Assembly (NCBI GenBank): GCA_905480605.1
Contig: CAJQRD010000011.1
Span: 1 to 64,000 of the forward strand
Source: an uncultured Saprospiraceae bacterium
GTDB taxonomy: Bacteria; Bacteroidota; Bacteroidia; Chitinophagales; Saprospiraceae
DNA length: 64,000 nucleotides
Direction of reading: 5' to 3'
Positions within the stretch are counted from its first letter, which is position 1. Every line of letters begins with the position of its first letter. Position numbers and translations under genes: made by a program. Shown piece after piece: positions 9,660 to 38,918 of this stretch. The notes under the pieces are model-generated. The model was not told where the DNA came from, searched no databases, and saw only the letters and a program-made list of their open reading frames with translations.

Positions 9660-10139
9660 TACACGGAGTTAAAGGAGTTACACAGAGTTTTATTAGGAGT
9701 AAGTTGTACTCTATGTAACTCATATTAAACTCTGTGCACCTCCATGAGATACTTTTCCTCCGCGTAACTCATATTAAACCCTGTGCACCTCAATGAAATA
9801 CTCTTCCTCTGTGAAACTCATATTAAACCCTGTGCACCTCAATGAAATACTCTTCCTCTGTGAAACTCATATTAAACCCTGTGCACCTCCGTGAAATACT
9901 CTTCCTCTGTGAAACTCATATTAACTCTGTGTAACTCCGTGAGATACTTTTCCTCCGCGTAACTCATATTAAACTCTGTGCAACTCCGTGAGATACTTTT
10001 CCTCCGCGTAACTCATATTAAACTCTGTGCACCTCCATGAAATACTTTTCCTCCGCGTAACTCATATTAACTCTGTGTAACTCCGTGAGATACTCTTCCT
10101 CCGTGTAACTCATATTAACTCTGTGTAACTCCGTGAGAT
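9660..10139. repeat. Nine-copy 49-bp direct repeat array with one inverted copy
   Basis: The motif AACTCATATTAAA-CTCTGTG, followed by CACCTCCGTGAGATACTTTTCCTCCGCGT, recurs with starts at 9717, 9766, 9815, 9864, 9913, 9961, 10010, 10059 and 10107. The period is 48-49 bp, with the last copy ending at about 10139. At 9660-9697 there is a copy in inverse orientation (ACGGAG...GTTACACAGAG), so the array can fold against its own end. Copies are variable at CCGTG/CCATG/CAATG and GCAC/GTAA, so it is old enough to have diverged. The array ends exactly at the stop codon of the GxxExxY gene, and degenerate copies reappear on the gene's other side (10566-10605). Confidence 0.9.
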
Positions 10140-10510
10140 CAGTTTACTACCCTTTTGATTCCATCTTTTAAAAGTTCAACATTAAAATTTATTAAGAGAC
10201 CCAGTTTGTAGCCTCCTAGTTTTAAATATGTATAAAGTTGAGAAAAATGAACATTCGTTAAGGACTCAGTTGCTTTTAATTCAATCACAACCTTATCATC
10301 AATCAGCAAGTCTAAACGATAACCATGTTTTAACTTAATATTGTCATAGATAATTGGTTGAGCAACTTCACTTTTTACGTCTAAACCAATTTTAATAAGT
10401 TCATAGATCAGACATTTTTGATAAGTAGATTCAAGTAATCCAGGCCCAAGTTTTCGATGCACTCTAATTGCACATCCAATTACCTCCGTACTAATTTCAT
10501 TGTAATGCAT
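10139..10510 (-). CDS. GxxExxY family protein, PD-(D/E)xK nuclease-like
   Basis: A 123-residue protein beginning at ATG 10510 (MHYNEISTEVIGCAIRVH), with the family signature GPGLLESTY (G-x2-E-x2-Y) near the start. YRLDLLIDDKVVIELKA follows, which fits the D...ExK core of PD-(D/E)xK nucleases. An in-frame ATG at 10600 would add 30 residues, but that extension is only translated repeat sequence, so 10510 is preferred. The family is very common in environmental genomes and has no proven function. Here it is embedded in a repeat array whose units touch its stop codon and reappear beyond its start, which suggests a gene-plus-repeat mobile unit. Confidence 0.85.
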   Translation of the reverse strand: MHYNEISTEVIGCAIRVHRKLGPGLLESTYQKCLIYELIKIGLDVKSEVAQPIIYDNIKLKHGYRLDLLIDDKVVIELKATESLTNVHFSQLYTYLKLGGYKLGLLINFNVELLKDGIKRVVN

Positions 10511-10703
10511 AGCTAGTTTTACTCTATAATGATTTATAAGCCAAAAAGTGATCACCTTAGAAAAATAAAACTCTGTGAAACTCATACTTTCTCTGTACAC
10601 ATCTGTGTGCGAACCCTTGTGAATCTTTATGGTTAATTAAAAAATAAAAACTTTTTCCTCGTTCAATTATTAGGAAAATCTTGAGTTGAGATTAATGAAC
10701 AAA

Positions 10704-10761: not shown

Positions 10762-11424
10762 TTACTCACCCTCAAATGCGAATTGTACTAAATTACATCC
10801 CATTCTCAAAGCTTTAATTCTTAGCTCTTCGGGGTCTTTATGTACTTCAAAATCTTCCCAGCCATCTCCTAAGTCACTTTCGTAACTGTAAAAACAAATC
10901 AAGCGACCTTCAGAAATTAATCCGTAACCCACAGATTCTTTATCATCATGTTTGTGGATTTTTGGAACGCCATTGCTGAATTTAAATTTTTGATGGTAAA
11001 CGGGATGATCAAAAGGAATTTCTATGAAATCTAAGTCTGGAAAAACTTCTTTCATAGCAATTCTTACGAATGGATCCATTCCATAGTTGTCATCAATGTG
11101 TAAAAAGCCTCCAGCCATTAAATAGGTTCTAAGGTTTTGAGCATCTGCGTCTGAAAACAACACGTTACCATGTCCTGTCATATGCAAAAAAGGATAGTTG
11201 AATATTTCTGCACTGCCTACTTCAACAGTCGCAAAATTTAAATCTAAATTAGTACCAATTTGTGAATTACAAAATGAGGCCAAATTAGGCAGGGCTGTTG
11301 GGTTAGAATACCAGTCTCCTCCGCTATATTTCAATAAGCCCAATTTATAAGTAGGCTCTTCGTTTGAACTTAAACTTATCAAACAAACAAATGCTGCTGC
11401 CAACAATATCAATTTACTCTTCAT
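10762..11424 (-). CDS. DUF4159 domain secreted protein
   Basis: A 220-residue protein with a Sec signal peptide (MKSKLILLAAAFVCLISLSS) and a DUF4159 domain covering the rest. The domain is recognisable by LLKYSGGDWYSNPTALPNL, FLHMTGHGNVLFSDADAQNLRTYLMAGGFLHIDDNYGMDPF and a C-terminal HKDPEELRIKALRMGCNLV. The fold is related to glutamine-amidotransferase-like DUF4159/BatA partners. It is the last gene of a three-gene minus-strand unit with the BatA-type and dihydroorotase-like genes (23-bp gap). Genes with this domain often accompany VWA/BatA proteins in Bacteroidota, pointing to an envelope-linked process of unknown nature. Confidence 0.85.
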   Translation of the reverse strand: MKSKLILLAAAFVCLISLSSNEEPTYKLGLLKYSGGDWYSNPTALPNLASFCNSQIGTNLDLNFATVEVGSAEIFNYPFLHMTGHGNVLFSDADAQNLRTYLMAGGFLHIDDNYGMDPFVRIAMKEVFPDLDFIEIPFDHPVYHQKFKFSNGVPKIHKHDDKESVGYGLISEGRLICFYSYESDLGDGWEDFEVHKDPEELRIKALRMGCNLVQFAFEGE

Positions 11425-11447: not shown

Positions 11448-12710
11448 TTAATAATTATTAAAATGTGATTTTTTACCATTTATGACACCGATAACTTTTC
11501 CTGTAAATTCAGTTTCCAAGAAAGGAGAATTTTCTGATTTGGATTTGTTAACAGCTTTGGTAAAAGTCCAGTTTTCTTCTGGATCAAATAATGTTAAATT
11601 GGCTTGTTCGCCTTCCTTTATTTCTGGAATCTCTAAGCCCAAAATTTTTCTTGGATTTATCGATAATGCAGTCACGGTTTTTTTAAGACTCAGTTTATCT
11701 GCAAATGTATTCACACCACTGAAACAGGTTTGCAATCCGATTGCTCCACCATCAGCGTAAACAAACTCTTTCTTTTTCAGTTCTTTTTCTAAGGGCACGT
11801 GGTTCGAAGTAATAACTTCAATATGTCCTTTTGTGACACCCTTTATCAAAGCTTGCCTGTCCTCCTCTGATCTTAAAGGTGGATTGACTTTTGAATTGAC
11901 ATCAAAAGTAGCAAGTGAGTCTTCCGTTTTACATAAGTTGAGATACGCTACTGAAGCATAAATATTCTTATCTTTTATTTCTGAGATAGTGTCAACACTT
12001 TCCTTACAAGAAATTTGGTGAACAAGTAATTTAGACTCTGCATATTGCGCAAGCCTAATATCTCTTTCAAGACATAGGAATTCTGAAATGTTTGGATTGG
12101 CCTTCAAACCTAAACTTGTACTTATGGTTCCTTCGTGAATGTCTTTATCGCCTCCAAGACTTTTATCTTGAGGTCTATTGATGATAAGTCCGTTTATTGA
12201 TTTGACATACTCCAAACCTCTTAATAAGACACCATTTGAGAGTATAGAGTTTTGTCCATCTGAAAATGCAATGGCACCATTTTGTGCCATGTCCATCATC
12301 TCTGTTATTTCTTCACCTTTACATTTTTTACTCAAAGCTCCTATAGGATAGAAATCAATTGTAAGATCTGTAGTCGCATTTAAAATATATTGAACAGACG
12401 ATTTACTATCAACAATAGGGTCTGAATTTGGGAACAGAGCAATCGCCGTATATCCTCCAGAGGCTGCACAATCATTGAGGCTTTCTAGCGTTTCTCGATG
12501 CTCAAATCCAGGTTCTCCACAGTTAGACCCAATGTCCATCCAGCCAATAGAGACATGAAGATTTTTTGATTTAATAAGCTTTGCTTTTTCATCTTTAATG
12601 TTATTGCCAATTTTTTCAATAACACCATTTTTAATCAGAACATCTTTCGTTTGATCGTGAAGTTCTGATTTGGGAAAGATTATTTTCGCTTGTTTAATCA
12701 ATACGTTCAT
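11448..12710 (-). CDS. Dihydroorotase-like amidohydrolase lacking metal ligands
   Basis: A 420-residue amidohydrolase-fold protein with the length and flow of class I dihydroorotases: VLIKNGVIEKIG start, EPGFEHRETLESL, SKVNPPLRSEEDRQAL, and a C-terminal INPRKILGLEIPEIKEGEQANLTLFDP. Key catalytic residues are replaced. The D-x-H-x-H metal motif reads D59-I-G61-S-N63, the adjacent substrate Arg is Gly65, and the D-H-A-P-H motif reads N303-H304-V-P-L307. It is therefore probably not an active zinc dihydroorotase. It may be a PyrC-prime-like structural partner of aspartate transcarbamoylase, or have another role. It sits in an operon with BatA-type and DUF4159 genes, not pyrimidine genes. Confidence 0.8.
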   Translation of the reverse strand: MNVLIKQAKIIFPKSELHDQTKDVLIKNGVIEKIGNNIKDEKAKLIKSKNLHVSIGWMDIGSNCGEPGFEHRETLESLNDCAASGGYTAIALFPNSDPIVDSKSSVQYILNATTDLTIDFYPIGALSKKCKGEEITEMMDMAQNGAIAFSDGQNSILSNGVLLRGLEYVKSINGLIINRPQDKSLGGDKDIHEGTISTSLGLKANPNISEFLCLERDIRLAQYAESKLLVHQISCKESVDTISEIKDKNIYASVAYLNLCKTEDSLATFDVNSKVNPPLRSEEDRQALIKGVTKGHIEVITSNHVPLEKELKKKEFVYADGGAIGLQTCFSGVNTFADKLSLKKTVTALSINPRKILGLEIPEIKEGEQANLTLFDPEENWTFTKAVNKSKSENSPFLETEFTGKVIGVINGKKSHFNNY

Positions 12711-12725
12711 GGTATGGATTGGTTT

Positions 12726-14744
12726 TTATATTTTCCAAAATCTAAGCAACATTGTTTCTATTGCCAGAAATATCAAAGCTAACATCAGGCACAATCTCCA
12801 ATAGGTTATACCTTGATCTTTTTCCTTTATAATATTACCTAAGTTTGCTTTAAGTGAATTGCCAAATACATTTGAAAAGGCACCAAACTTGGTTTCTAAT
12901 TCTTCTGCTCCAATGTAGTCAAGATTTGATTCGATCCTGTCATAATTAAATGCCAGGCCTTTAACCAATTCATCCTGTAAAGTCAAATCATAGTAGCCTG
13001 CTTCACTGATCATATTGTTAAAGTTGATCATTGTTGCGTTCCCCAGGTTTGTTTGCCCAGGAATAAATTCTTGAGCTCCTTTTATTTTGTAAATGATATC
13101 ATTTGAAGTTGATACATTGTTTATCTCAGTAAAATTATCCTTACCAATACTGAATGCCAGTTGGTCATTTTGATTGGCTGCATAAGATATTTTATAAACC
13201 AAAGGCACAAAGACTTCTGCATTGACAACCAGGTCATTGTACTTTTTATCCAAAGGGGATGCAGATACAAACAAGTTACCTTTCCCTCTTTTATATTTTG
13301 TAATGTAGTTTTCTCCGTTTCTATATTTTAAAAGATACTCTCCACCTCTAGAGCTAAAATTGCTAAATTGATAATTTCCTTCAGTTGTAGGTAACTTCAA
13401 ATTAGAACCAATGGATGCATATACGTTATCAAATACAAATTCACTTGTATTGATTCTATACACTGCATTTTTTTCTTGTTGCCATTGCGTTATCGTATTC
13501 GTATTTAAAGAAGAAAAAAAGCTGTTGTATGAGTCGGTGTCAGCATTTGCAGGAGGAAATACCATAACATTGCCACCATTTTCAGTGTAAGATTTTATGG
13601 CGGAAGCTAAACCTGTAGTTATGCTTTTGAGATCTGATAATATTATAAGATCGTGATTTTTAAGTTGATCATACTGAATTGAAGAAACAGCAACATTGTT
13701 AATTTCAAATGCATTTAAACCTTTAAAAACAGCTGACAAATATTTATTAGGTTTGTTGGTGTTGATTGACAACACAGATGTTTTTTCTTTGATGTTGAAA
13801 CTGATAAAATAACTATCATCAAACTGAATGGGGTAGTCATCAATCTTAACTTTAATTTTCTGCCAACCTGGTTCTGTTATCAATAAATTGATAGTATCCA
13901 CTTTTGTACCGTTAGCTGGAATGTTAAACGTCCCTTCAGGTCTATTTTGATTGTTGTGATTTATACTTAATCTGATATCTTCTCTGGCTTCGTTGCTGTG
14001 GTTTTTAATCCTTACTATCAACTTGTTATTTTGGTTGATTGAAGGCACAACAGATTCGAACCATACGCTATCTAGAGAAATGTTATTTTCTTTTACAGCT
14101 TGCATAGGAATCAAATTAACTTCACTTAAAGTATCGCTTTCAAGATTGAAGTCGGTAATGCTTTTTTGAAAATCTGACAGATAATAAATAACATGATTGC
14201 CATCCTCTGGTTTGGATTGCAATTGCTTGTTATATACATTTGACAATAGATTCACTTCAGGATTTAAACCAATATCCTCAATGGCTTGAATTGTATTTTC
14301 CTGATTGATCCACCTCTGTTGACTGCCTTTTAATTCATGTGAAATAATCTGAAATTGATCAGCAACACCATAGGCGGATATTATTTCTTCTGCTTTCTTC
14401 TTTGCTTTGTCAATCAATGGCACATCTTCACTCAATGCCATCATACTATTGGAGTTGTCAATGAAGATACTGACATAGTTCTTTCCAGTTTTGGCAGTAT
14501 CATTTTCGGATAAGAAAGGTTGTGCAAAGGCAATAATTAGACATGCCGCAGCGAATAATCTAGACAGTAGGACTAAAAAGTTGCGTAACTGCCTTCTTGT
14601 ACTCTTCTCTTCCTTAATCTCTTTAAGAAGCTTAACATTGGTGAAATACACCTTTTTAAACCTCCTGAAATGGAAAAGGTGAATTATTATCGGTATTGCA
14701 AGGGCCAATATTGCCCATAAAATCTGTGGATGTAAAAACTGCAT
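12726..14744 (-). CDS. BatA N-terminal domain / VWA-like membrane protein
   Basis: A 672-residue membrane protein. The N-terminus has the BatA signature (MQFLHPQILWAILALAIPIIIHLFHFRRFKKVYFTNVKLL), with membrane helices near residues 8-24 and 57-78. A VWA-like domain with a MIDAS-like DNSNSMM (about 96-102) follows, then a long periplasmic region and a final transmembrane helix (about 648-668). Relatives are the aerotolerance-operon BatA/BatB proteins, though this is the longer stand-alone form common in Bacteroidota. It is the first gene of a three-gene unit (15 bp to the dihydroorotase-like gene). A role in envelope maintenance is inferred. Confidence 0.85.
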   Translation of the reverse strand: MQFLHPQILWAILALAIPIIIHLFHFRRFKKVYFTNVKLLKEIKEEKSTRRQLRNFLVLLSRLFAAACLIIAFAQPFLSENDTAKTGKNYVSIFIDNSNSMMALSEDVPLIDKAKKKAEEIISAYGVADQFQIISHELKGSQQRWINQENTIQAIEDIGLNPEVNLLSNVYNKQLQSKPEDGNHVIYYLSDFQKSITDFNLESDTLSEVNLIPMQAVKENNISLDSVWFESVVPSINQNNKLIVRIKNHSNEAREDIRLSINHNNQNRPEGTFNIPANGTKVDTINLLITEPGWQKIKVKIDDYPIQFDDSYFISFNIKEKTSVLSINTNKPNKYLSAVFKGLNAFEINNVAVSSIQYDQLKNHDLIILSDLKSITTGLASAIKSYTENGGNVMVFPPANADTDSYNSFFSSLNTNTITQWQQEKNAVYRINTSEFVFDNVYASIGSNLKLPTTEGNYQFSNFSSRGGEYLLKYRNGENYITKYKRGKGNLFVSASPLDKKYNDLVVNAEVFVPLVYKISYAANQNDQLAFSIGKDNFTEINNVSTSNDIIYKIKGAQEFIPGQTNLGNATMINFNNMISEAGYYDLTLQDELVKGLAFNYDRIESNLDYIGAEELETKFGAFSNVFGNSLKANLGNIIKEKDQGITYWRLCLMLALIFLAIETMLLRFWKI

Positions 14745-14970
14745 AGTTAAATGTACGTGTACAAAAGTATCAATTCTATTAATTATTAATGCATTGAATG
14801 CTTCTAATGTTGTGATGTGTCTGGTTTTTATCTAATTGAAATCTCAGATATTACTTACTATGGACCCGATACCCTCAATATGCTTGGTTTTTACCAAACT
14901 TGGCTAGTATGATATAATGTGATATAATTAAGTAACAATGGAGAGAATGAACATTCTTCGACTTATTCAC

Positions 14971-15011
14971 CTGCAGGAGAGGGGTCTCTGCCAGAGACCC
15001 CTCTCCTGCAG
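14971..15011. repeat. Perfect 41-bp palindrome
   Basis: The arm CTGCAGGAGAGGGGTCTCTG (14971-14990) and its exact reverse complement (14992-15011) flank a single central base. The arms are GC-rich in an AT-rich setting. It could form a cruciform or, in RNA, a very stable hairpin between two divergently oriented genes. Confidence 0.95.
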
Positions 15012-15110
15012 TAAATTCTAGTTAGGCCCTTTATTTAAAGGAGTTTTGGTGTTGTCAGGCTGCATGATTAGATTGAATAATTGAGATTTCAGACCAAAGT
15101 CAACAGCAGG

Positions 15111-15144
15111 GGAGGGGTCTCTGGCAGAGGGGGGTCTCTGCCAG
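15111..15144. repeat. Second copy of the GGGGTCTCTGCCAG hairpin repeat
   Basis: AGGGGTCTCTGGCAGAGG and GGGGTCTCTGCCAGGG lie side by side. CTGGCAGAG (15121-15129) pairs with CTCTGCCAG (15136-15144). It shares the GGGGTCTCTG core with the perfect palindrome 100 bp upstream, so the two belong to one repeat family. It lies about 90 bp before the start chosen for the downstream gene. Confidence 0.75.
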
Positions 15145-38799: not shown

Positions 38800-38918
38800 T
38801 TCTTCTTCTTACTCTGTTTATATTTTGGCTCTGGCTCTTAAGATTGAGTCAAAGAGAGGAGTCTTTGAATTTAAAAATGAACCAGGAGTATAGTAAAATG
38901 TTTCAGTAGGATTATTGA

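Follow-up and report, generated by a model that had tools for sequence, protein, structure and literature searches.

A pseudo-dihydroorotase without its metal site as a probable non-catalytic subunit of ATCase

The locus and its genes

The window, that is, the whole stretch of 64,000 nucleotides that was analysed, contains a gene for a dihydroorotase (DHO) homologue, referred to here as pseudo-dihydroorotase (pDHO), located between the genes of a BatA-domain protein and a DUF4159 protein (Table 1). It is clear that the protein is a DHO homologue, as the earlier note on this DNA had claimed, given that family models match it nearly from end to end. The dihydroorotase models TIGR00857 and PRK09059 give 278 bits (cut-off 279) and 316 bits (cut-off 645), respectively, and the solved structures that are closest by sequence are those of Aquifex DHO (E of about 1e-66). 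The AlphaFold2 model has a mean pLDDT of 92.5, and its top PDB match in the fold comparison is 3d6n_A, the DHO from an ATC-bound complex (TM 0.93), while its identity to 2gwn in the structure comparison is 18%. Models, sequence, and predicted structure thus agree on a type-I DHO fold over the full length. Loop 181-210 is predicted with low confidence (62-71), which is reminiscent of the disordered loop A in free Aquifex DHO.

Table 1. Features of the window at and around the pDHO gene
Feature	Position	Strand	Description
pDHO	11448..12710	(-)	420 aa, ATG start
BatA-domain protein	12726..14744	(-)	672 aa; directly upstream of pDHO; PF07584 4.9e-21
DUF4159 protein	10762..11424	(-)	220 aa; directly downstream of pDHO; PF13709 1.7e-66
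GxxExxY / PDDEXK_3-family protein	10139-10600	(-)	downstream of the DUF4159 gene
Codons of residues 61-65	12516..12530	(-)	H61 to G, H63 to N, R65 to G relative to active relatives (alignments)
Codon of D151	12258..12260	(-)	sole metal ligand retained (Asp153 of Aquifex); D in 70/75 class sequences
Codon of R179	12174..12176	(-)	Aquifex His180 lost (alignment)
Codon of Q232	12015..12017	(-)	Aquifex His232 lost (alignment)
Codons of residues 303-307	11790..11804	(-)	N-H-V-P-L, D-H-A-P-H in active enzymes; Aquifex Asp305 to N
Match to -7 box	14762-14769	(-)	TACTTTTG, just before the BatA gene
Palindrome	14977-15005		same 14-base word on either strand; lies upstream of the BatA gene
Near-copies of the palindrome	15110-15140		two copies
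Weaker near-copy	38854-38867		one copy

The operon neighbours reported earlier are real, with the three genes on the same strand and separated by gaps of 15 bp (BatA to pDHO) and 23 bp (pDHO to DUF4159). Just before the BatA gene, one stretch fits TAnnTTTG, the consensus of the -7 box in Bacteroidota; in a scan for promoters and terminators the counts resembled those of shuffled sequence. The palindrome further upstream, which together with its copies gives five matches where 0.09 are expected, may represent a small repeat or a terminator-like element.

Loss of the metal site

Seven positions were scored, namely the six residues of Aquifex DHO compared in the excerpt of PMC3880350 (His61, His63, Asp153, His180, His232, and Asp305) and the arginine of the motif. 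At the six Aquifex positions pDHO carries G61, N63, D151, R179, Q232, and N303, and residue 65 is a glycine where active enzymes carry an arginine, which leaves the aspartate at 151 as the only one of the seven that is retained. The motifs read in the earlier note (D-I-G-S-N at residues 59-63, glycine for arginine at 65, and N-H-V-P-L at 303-307) are found exactly so, and its view that Zn-dependent catalysis is unlikely has held up well. Judging from the sequence, the alpha metal site and the motif arginine are lost, and there is good support for zinc catalysis having gone with them. With respect to His61, His63, Asp153, and Asp305 (Aquifex numbering), pDHO does not belong with the catalytic type-I DHOs; as a DHO homologue without metal site, it agrees with the pseudo-DHO subunit of class A2 aspartate transcarbamoylase (ATCase). 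The histidine beside Q232, H231, is poorly conserved (8 of 75 sequences).

A profile built from 27 sequences of the family matches 359 of 395 genomes of the phylum (E 1e-50). Within the bacterial class of the host, which is what "class" denotes here when applied to genomes and sequences, it matches 287 of 326 genomes that are at least 95% complete (E 1e-50); among these 287, the metal site was read in the fetched sequences, and at least one match, in genome G111, is an intact DHO that lies directly behind its own pyrB. The alignment comprises 75 class sequences, 42 from outside the class, and two more (G111 and a Lachnospiraceae MAG), and omits truncated loci and some other loci. Except for G111, all aligned class sequences (75 of 76) are degenerate and retain between zero and five of the positions scored, while 38 of the 42 homologues from outside the class are intact, with all seven kept. 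The ligand positions are invariant in these 38 relatives and, D151 excepted, variable in the class, and with the intact G111 set aside the combination of H61, H63, and D303 occurs in none of the 75 degenerate sequences, which excludes chance as the origin of the loss. Entropy in the class places position 63 at the 98th percentile, followed by positions 179 (88th), 61 (78th), 232 (73rd), 303 (62nd), and 65 (48th). At the same time, conservation among the 75 sequences reaches 90% or more in 54 of the 420 columns, and this pattern, together with variable ligand positions, is the hallmark of a protein that is retained for the sake of its fold rather than of zinc chemistry.

The 75 degenerate sequences form one group (FastTree, support 0.90), which is joined next by G135, also degenerate. 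This suggests that the metal site disappeared once close to the root of the class, and independently in family f28 outside it. All three loci examined of that family have a homologue devoid of the metal site immediately after pyrB, which is the PyrBC' arrangement. The nearest named relative is a Saprospiraceae MAG, in which BatA comes directly before the gene. The Lachnospiraceae MAG contig (L162) encodes an intact type-I DHO that is 31% identical to pDHO.

Three readings of the degenerate site were weighed against retention for the fold. The retention of D151 (70 of 75) and of the invariant H304, next to or within the former metal-site motifs, and the frequent glycine at positions 65 (46 of 75) and 61 (24 of 75) could point to an enzyme of new chemistry, which would have traded zinc for an activity that is metal-free or differently bound; most of the former ligand positions are variable and share no single replacement set, and such an enzyme is considered improbable. 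That pDHO is still a dihydroorotase, using one metal or none, would have a precedent in Aquifex DHO, which functions without its beta-site histidines according to the excerpt of PMC3880350. In the window protein, however, H61 and H63 of the alpha site, the motif arginine, and Asp305 are gone, no degenerate class member retains the set H61, H63, and D303, and another DHO is present in the genome, which makes residual activity of this kind highly improbable. The drift of the metal site across the class would also suit a decaying relic without function, but a family member is kept in most of the class genomes, only a few of the matches listed have an internal stop, and the 54 conserved columns also speak against decay, which is given hardly any credence.

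The other DHO was found in the genome of the host (G000), a 4.5 Mb draft of 125 contigs, where TIGR00857 gives seven matches. The three that span the full length are pDHO, a protein that we take to be hydantoinase-like, and an intact-looking DHO at G000:C25:48366-49604 (L001), which gives 470 bits to the solved 2gwn and may be active. An intact pyrC elsewhere, which the earlier note had proposed to look for, thus appears to exist. This DHO, presumably of the PRK09236 subfamily and of 2gwn type, shares superfamily and genome with pDHO but is intact-looking and of a different subfamily. It has a glutamine at the first histidine of the motif. Among eight other genes with 468-573 bits to it, six have glutamine, one has histidine, and one is unreadable at this position, which indicates that glutamine is usual in the subfamily.

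Gene neighbours, PyrB type, and the presence of pDHO

The host genome has one PyrB, on contig C10, and no match to PyrI in the 125-contig draft, and is therefore a genome with PyrB and without PyrI. The gene of pDHO lies on contig C11 and is thus not adjacent to pyrB, an adjacency that is usual, though perhaps not essential, in class A2 ATCases. Host PyrB gives 213 bits to 6pnz, 204 bits to 2at2, and 196 bits to Aquifex ATC; given that the first two are slightly above the third, its sequence alone is no proof of class A.

The presence of the family follows the type of PyrB. The 326 class genomes were cross-tabulated by hand, with 20 of the 39 absences listed and 19 read from gaps among the positives. 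Among the matches listed, the 302 genomes that have PyrB but no PyrI include 285 with a family member; it also occurs in two of the seven without PyrB (G447, weak, and G541), and in none of the 17 with PyrI, which belong to eight families and possibly to one clade and so do not represent 17 independent events. The PyrB of G385 stands beside PyrI and is of the E. coli type.

The 17 genomes of the group of 302 that lack pDHO are G051 and G134 (family f19), seven of family f102, and G453, G479, G503, G603, G607, G609, G646, and G651. Their PyrBs were typed in a quick tree of 110 rows with long branches flagged, a non-random set for which genomes without pDHO were picked on purpose. The PyrB of G051 is of the B. 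subtilis type (348 bits to 3r7d versus 186 to Aquifex ATC), and the six f19 PyrBs that were fetched form one clade in this tree, with 202-212 bits to host PyrB. No pDHO match was found in at least eight f19 genomes in the search of the phylum and at least two in that of the class, and in three of them searched to 1e-15 other DHO-family genes were the sole matches. In genus g209, five of six genomes have a pDHO match, G503 being the sole exception, and the PyrB of G503 is of a foreign type (best matches 2rgw, 1ml4, and CAD). G544, of the same genus, has both a native-type and a foreign PyrB (L238, L274) and a pDHO match, while G503 has only a foreign PyrB (L242) and no match; it is possible that a replacement of PyrB has here been caught midway. 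All seven f102 genomes are without a pDHO match and their PyrB (280-302 bits to host PyrB) is on a long branch, for which replacement and fast change are indistinguishable. G479, also without a match, has a long-branch PyrB with 313 bits.

In six drafts (G453, G603, G607, G609, G646, and G651), a PyrB of the native type (407-532 bits) is found without a pDHO match. Gaps in the drafts or the 1e-50 cut-off may explain these six as well as G447 and G541. The PyrB of G609 is nearly identical to that of G563, which has a pDHO match, and therefore at least this absence seems to be due to a gap in the draft. In genus g51 of family f24, the near-complete G205 and G425 have neither a PyrB over the cut-off nor pDHO, and the intact pyrB-DHO pair of G111, the third genome of this genus, was perhaps regained by transfer. 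Two genomes from outside the class, G234 and G427, have PyrI and a family match together, the homologue of G234 being intact, which speaks against a strict either-or and means that PyrI does not exclude the family everywhere.

A frequent neighbour of pDHO is BatA. Of the 44 long-flanked loci of the class, a set that leaves out one Lachnospiraceae locus, 28, from 13 families, carry a BatA gene upstream of pDHO and on its strand, within 100 bp in 27 cases and at 526 bp in the other. The remaining 16 loci retain pDHO without this neighbour, and inspection of their upstream genes by eye gave no evident overlooked BatA. This linkage, the tight operon of BatA, pDHO, and DUF4159 in the window, and a partial correlation of 0.37 between the distances of pDHO and BatA given PyrB (reached by 2 of 2000 permutations) would be accounted for if pDHO were a scaffold with BatA and DUF4159 in an envelope or stress module and played no part in pyrimidine synthesis. 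The same distance matrices of 19 genomes nonetheless give a stronger partial correlation between pDHO and PyrB given BatA (0.68, reached by none of 2000 permutations); BatA served as the single control gene, and both values exceed nearly all permutations. Family f17 retains pDHO without a BatA neighbour in all of its 10 loci, with DUF4199 and glycosyltransferase genes mostly downstream, and DUF4159 was found in just two of the 44 loci, non-adjacent in one, in a search with one sequence. With the presence of pDHO following the type of PyrB, a role confined to the envelope is unlikely.

It had been proposed in the earlier note that pDHO is a structural partner or has a role unrelated to pyrimidines. 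A structural partner fits the evidence, while the counts for genomes with PyrB only, with PyrI, and without PyrB, and the absence from f19 with its Bacillus-type PyrB, leave the second part without support; outside the class, moreover, pyrB lies directly upstream in 10 of 26 loci with long flanks.

Proposed role and known systems

The fold, the lost metal site, and a presence that tracks the type of PyrB fit a role like that of PyrC', and pDHO is probably a non-catalytic subunit of a class-A-type ATCase, a trans-encoded new variant of the known pseudo-DHO subunit. Dimers of pDHO would bind and stabilise the catalytic trimers of PyrB in a dodecamer, as Aquifex DHO and Pseudomonas PyrC' do; both this physical contact and its stoichiometry are inferred, as is the dependence of ATCase activity on pDHO. 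An ancestral pyrB-pyrC operon may have encoded an active DHO, until a second DHO of the PRK09236/2gwn type would have taken over catalysis; the metal site of the old subunit would then have degenerated close to the root of the class, and its gene would have left pyrB and, in many families, ended up behind BatA.

Some observations count against this subunit. The 44 long-flanked class loci include no case of pyrB adjoining pDHO, and the linkage to BatA across 13 families stands outside what a subunit explains. Loop 181-210 was considered as a conserved partner-binding loop, but its conservation is unremarkable (6 of 30 columns at least 90% conserved versus a mean of 4.1 per 30-residue window), and hence no support was drawn from it. 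A protein that bridges two systems, by holding PyrB in a class-A ATCase and coupling or tethering pyrimidine synthesis, through its operon with DUF4159 and the membrane protein BatA, to an envelope module, seems a rather improbable extension of the subunit role.

If pDHO is a subunit of ATCase, most members of a large bacterial class would depend for pyrimidine synthesis on a gene that is not linked to pyrB. Given that family models match pDHO as a dihydroorotase, the DHO step may then be misassigned in annotation and metabolic models. The genomes in which ATCase was replaced and the scaffold lost would offer a natural series for studying how an enzyme becomes a subunit. Among the titles and opening lines of abstracts listed for the open-access literature on inactive DHOs, on DHO-ATC interfaces of Aquifex, on ATCase in Bacteroidetes, and on a link of DHO to BatA and DUF4159, none describes this family in Bacteroidota.

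In Pseudomonas, pyrC' is encoded together with pyrB, and the subunit has been proven biochemically, whereas the gene of pDHO lies apart from pyrB and its function would be that of PyrC' by analogy. According to the excerpt of PMC7053772, class A ATCases are dodecamers in which two PyrB trimers are held by three DHO dimers, and PyrC' of the class A2 enzyme is a DHO homologue without activity that is associated with PyrB, as pDHO is proposed to be; PyrB of P. aeruginosa is monomeric and inactive without this pseudo-DHO, even though the latter is itself inactive (PMC7053772). PyrX of Sinorhizobium meliloti, proposed in the excerpt of PMC5929573 to be an inactive DHO needed for PyrB with the essential PyrC encoded elsewhere, resembles the case of pDHO. 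Unlike pDHO, the gene of PyrX (smc01361) adjoins pyrB and its phenotype is known, given that disruption leads to pyrimidine auxotrophy (PMC5929573). The DHO-ATC complex of Aquifex aeolicus (class A1, 3d6n) is the closest solved structure in both sequence and fold, and its DHO, unlike pDHO, is active and has intact ligands.
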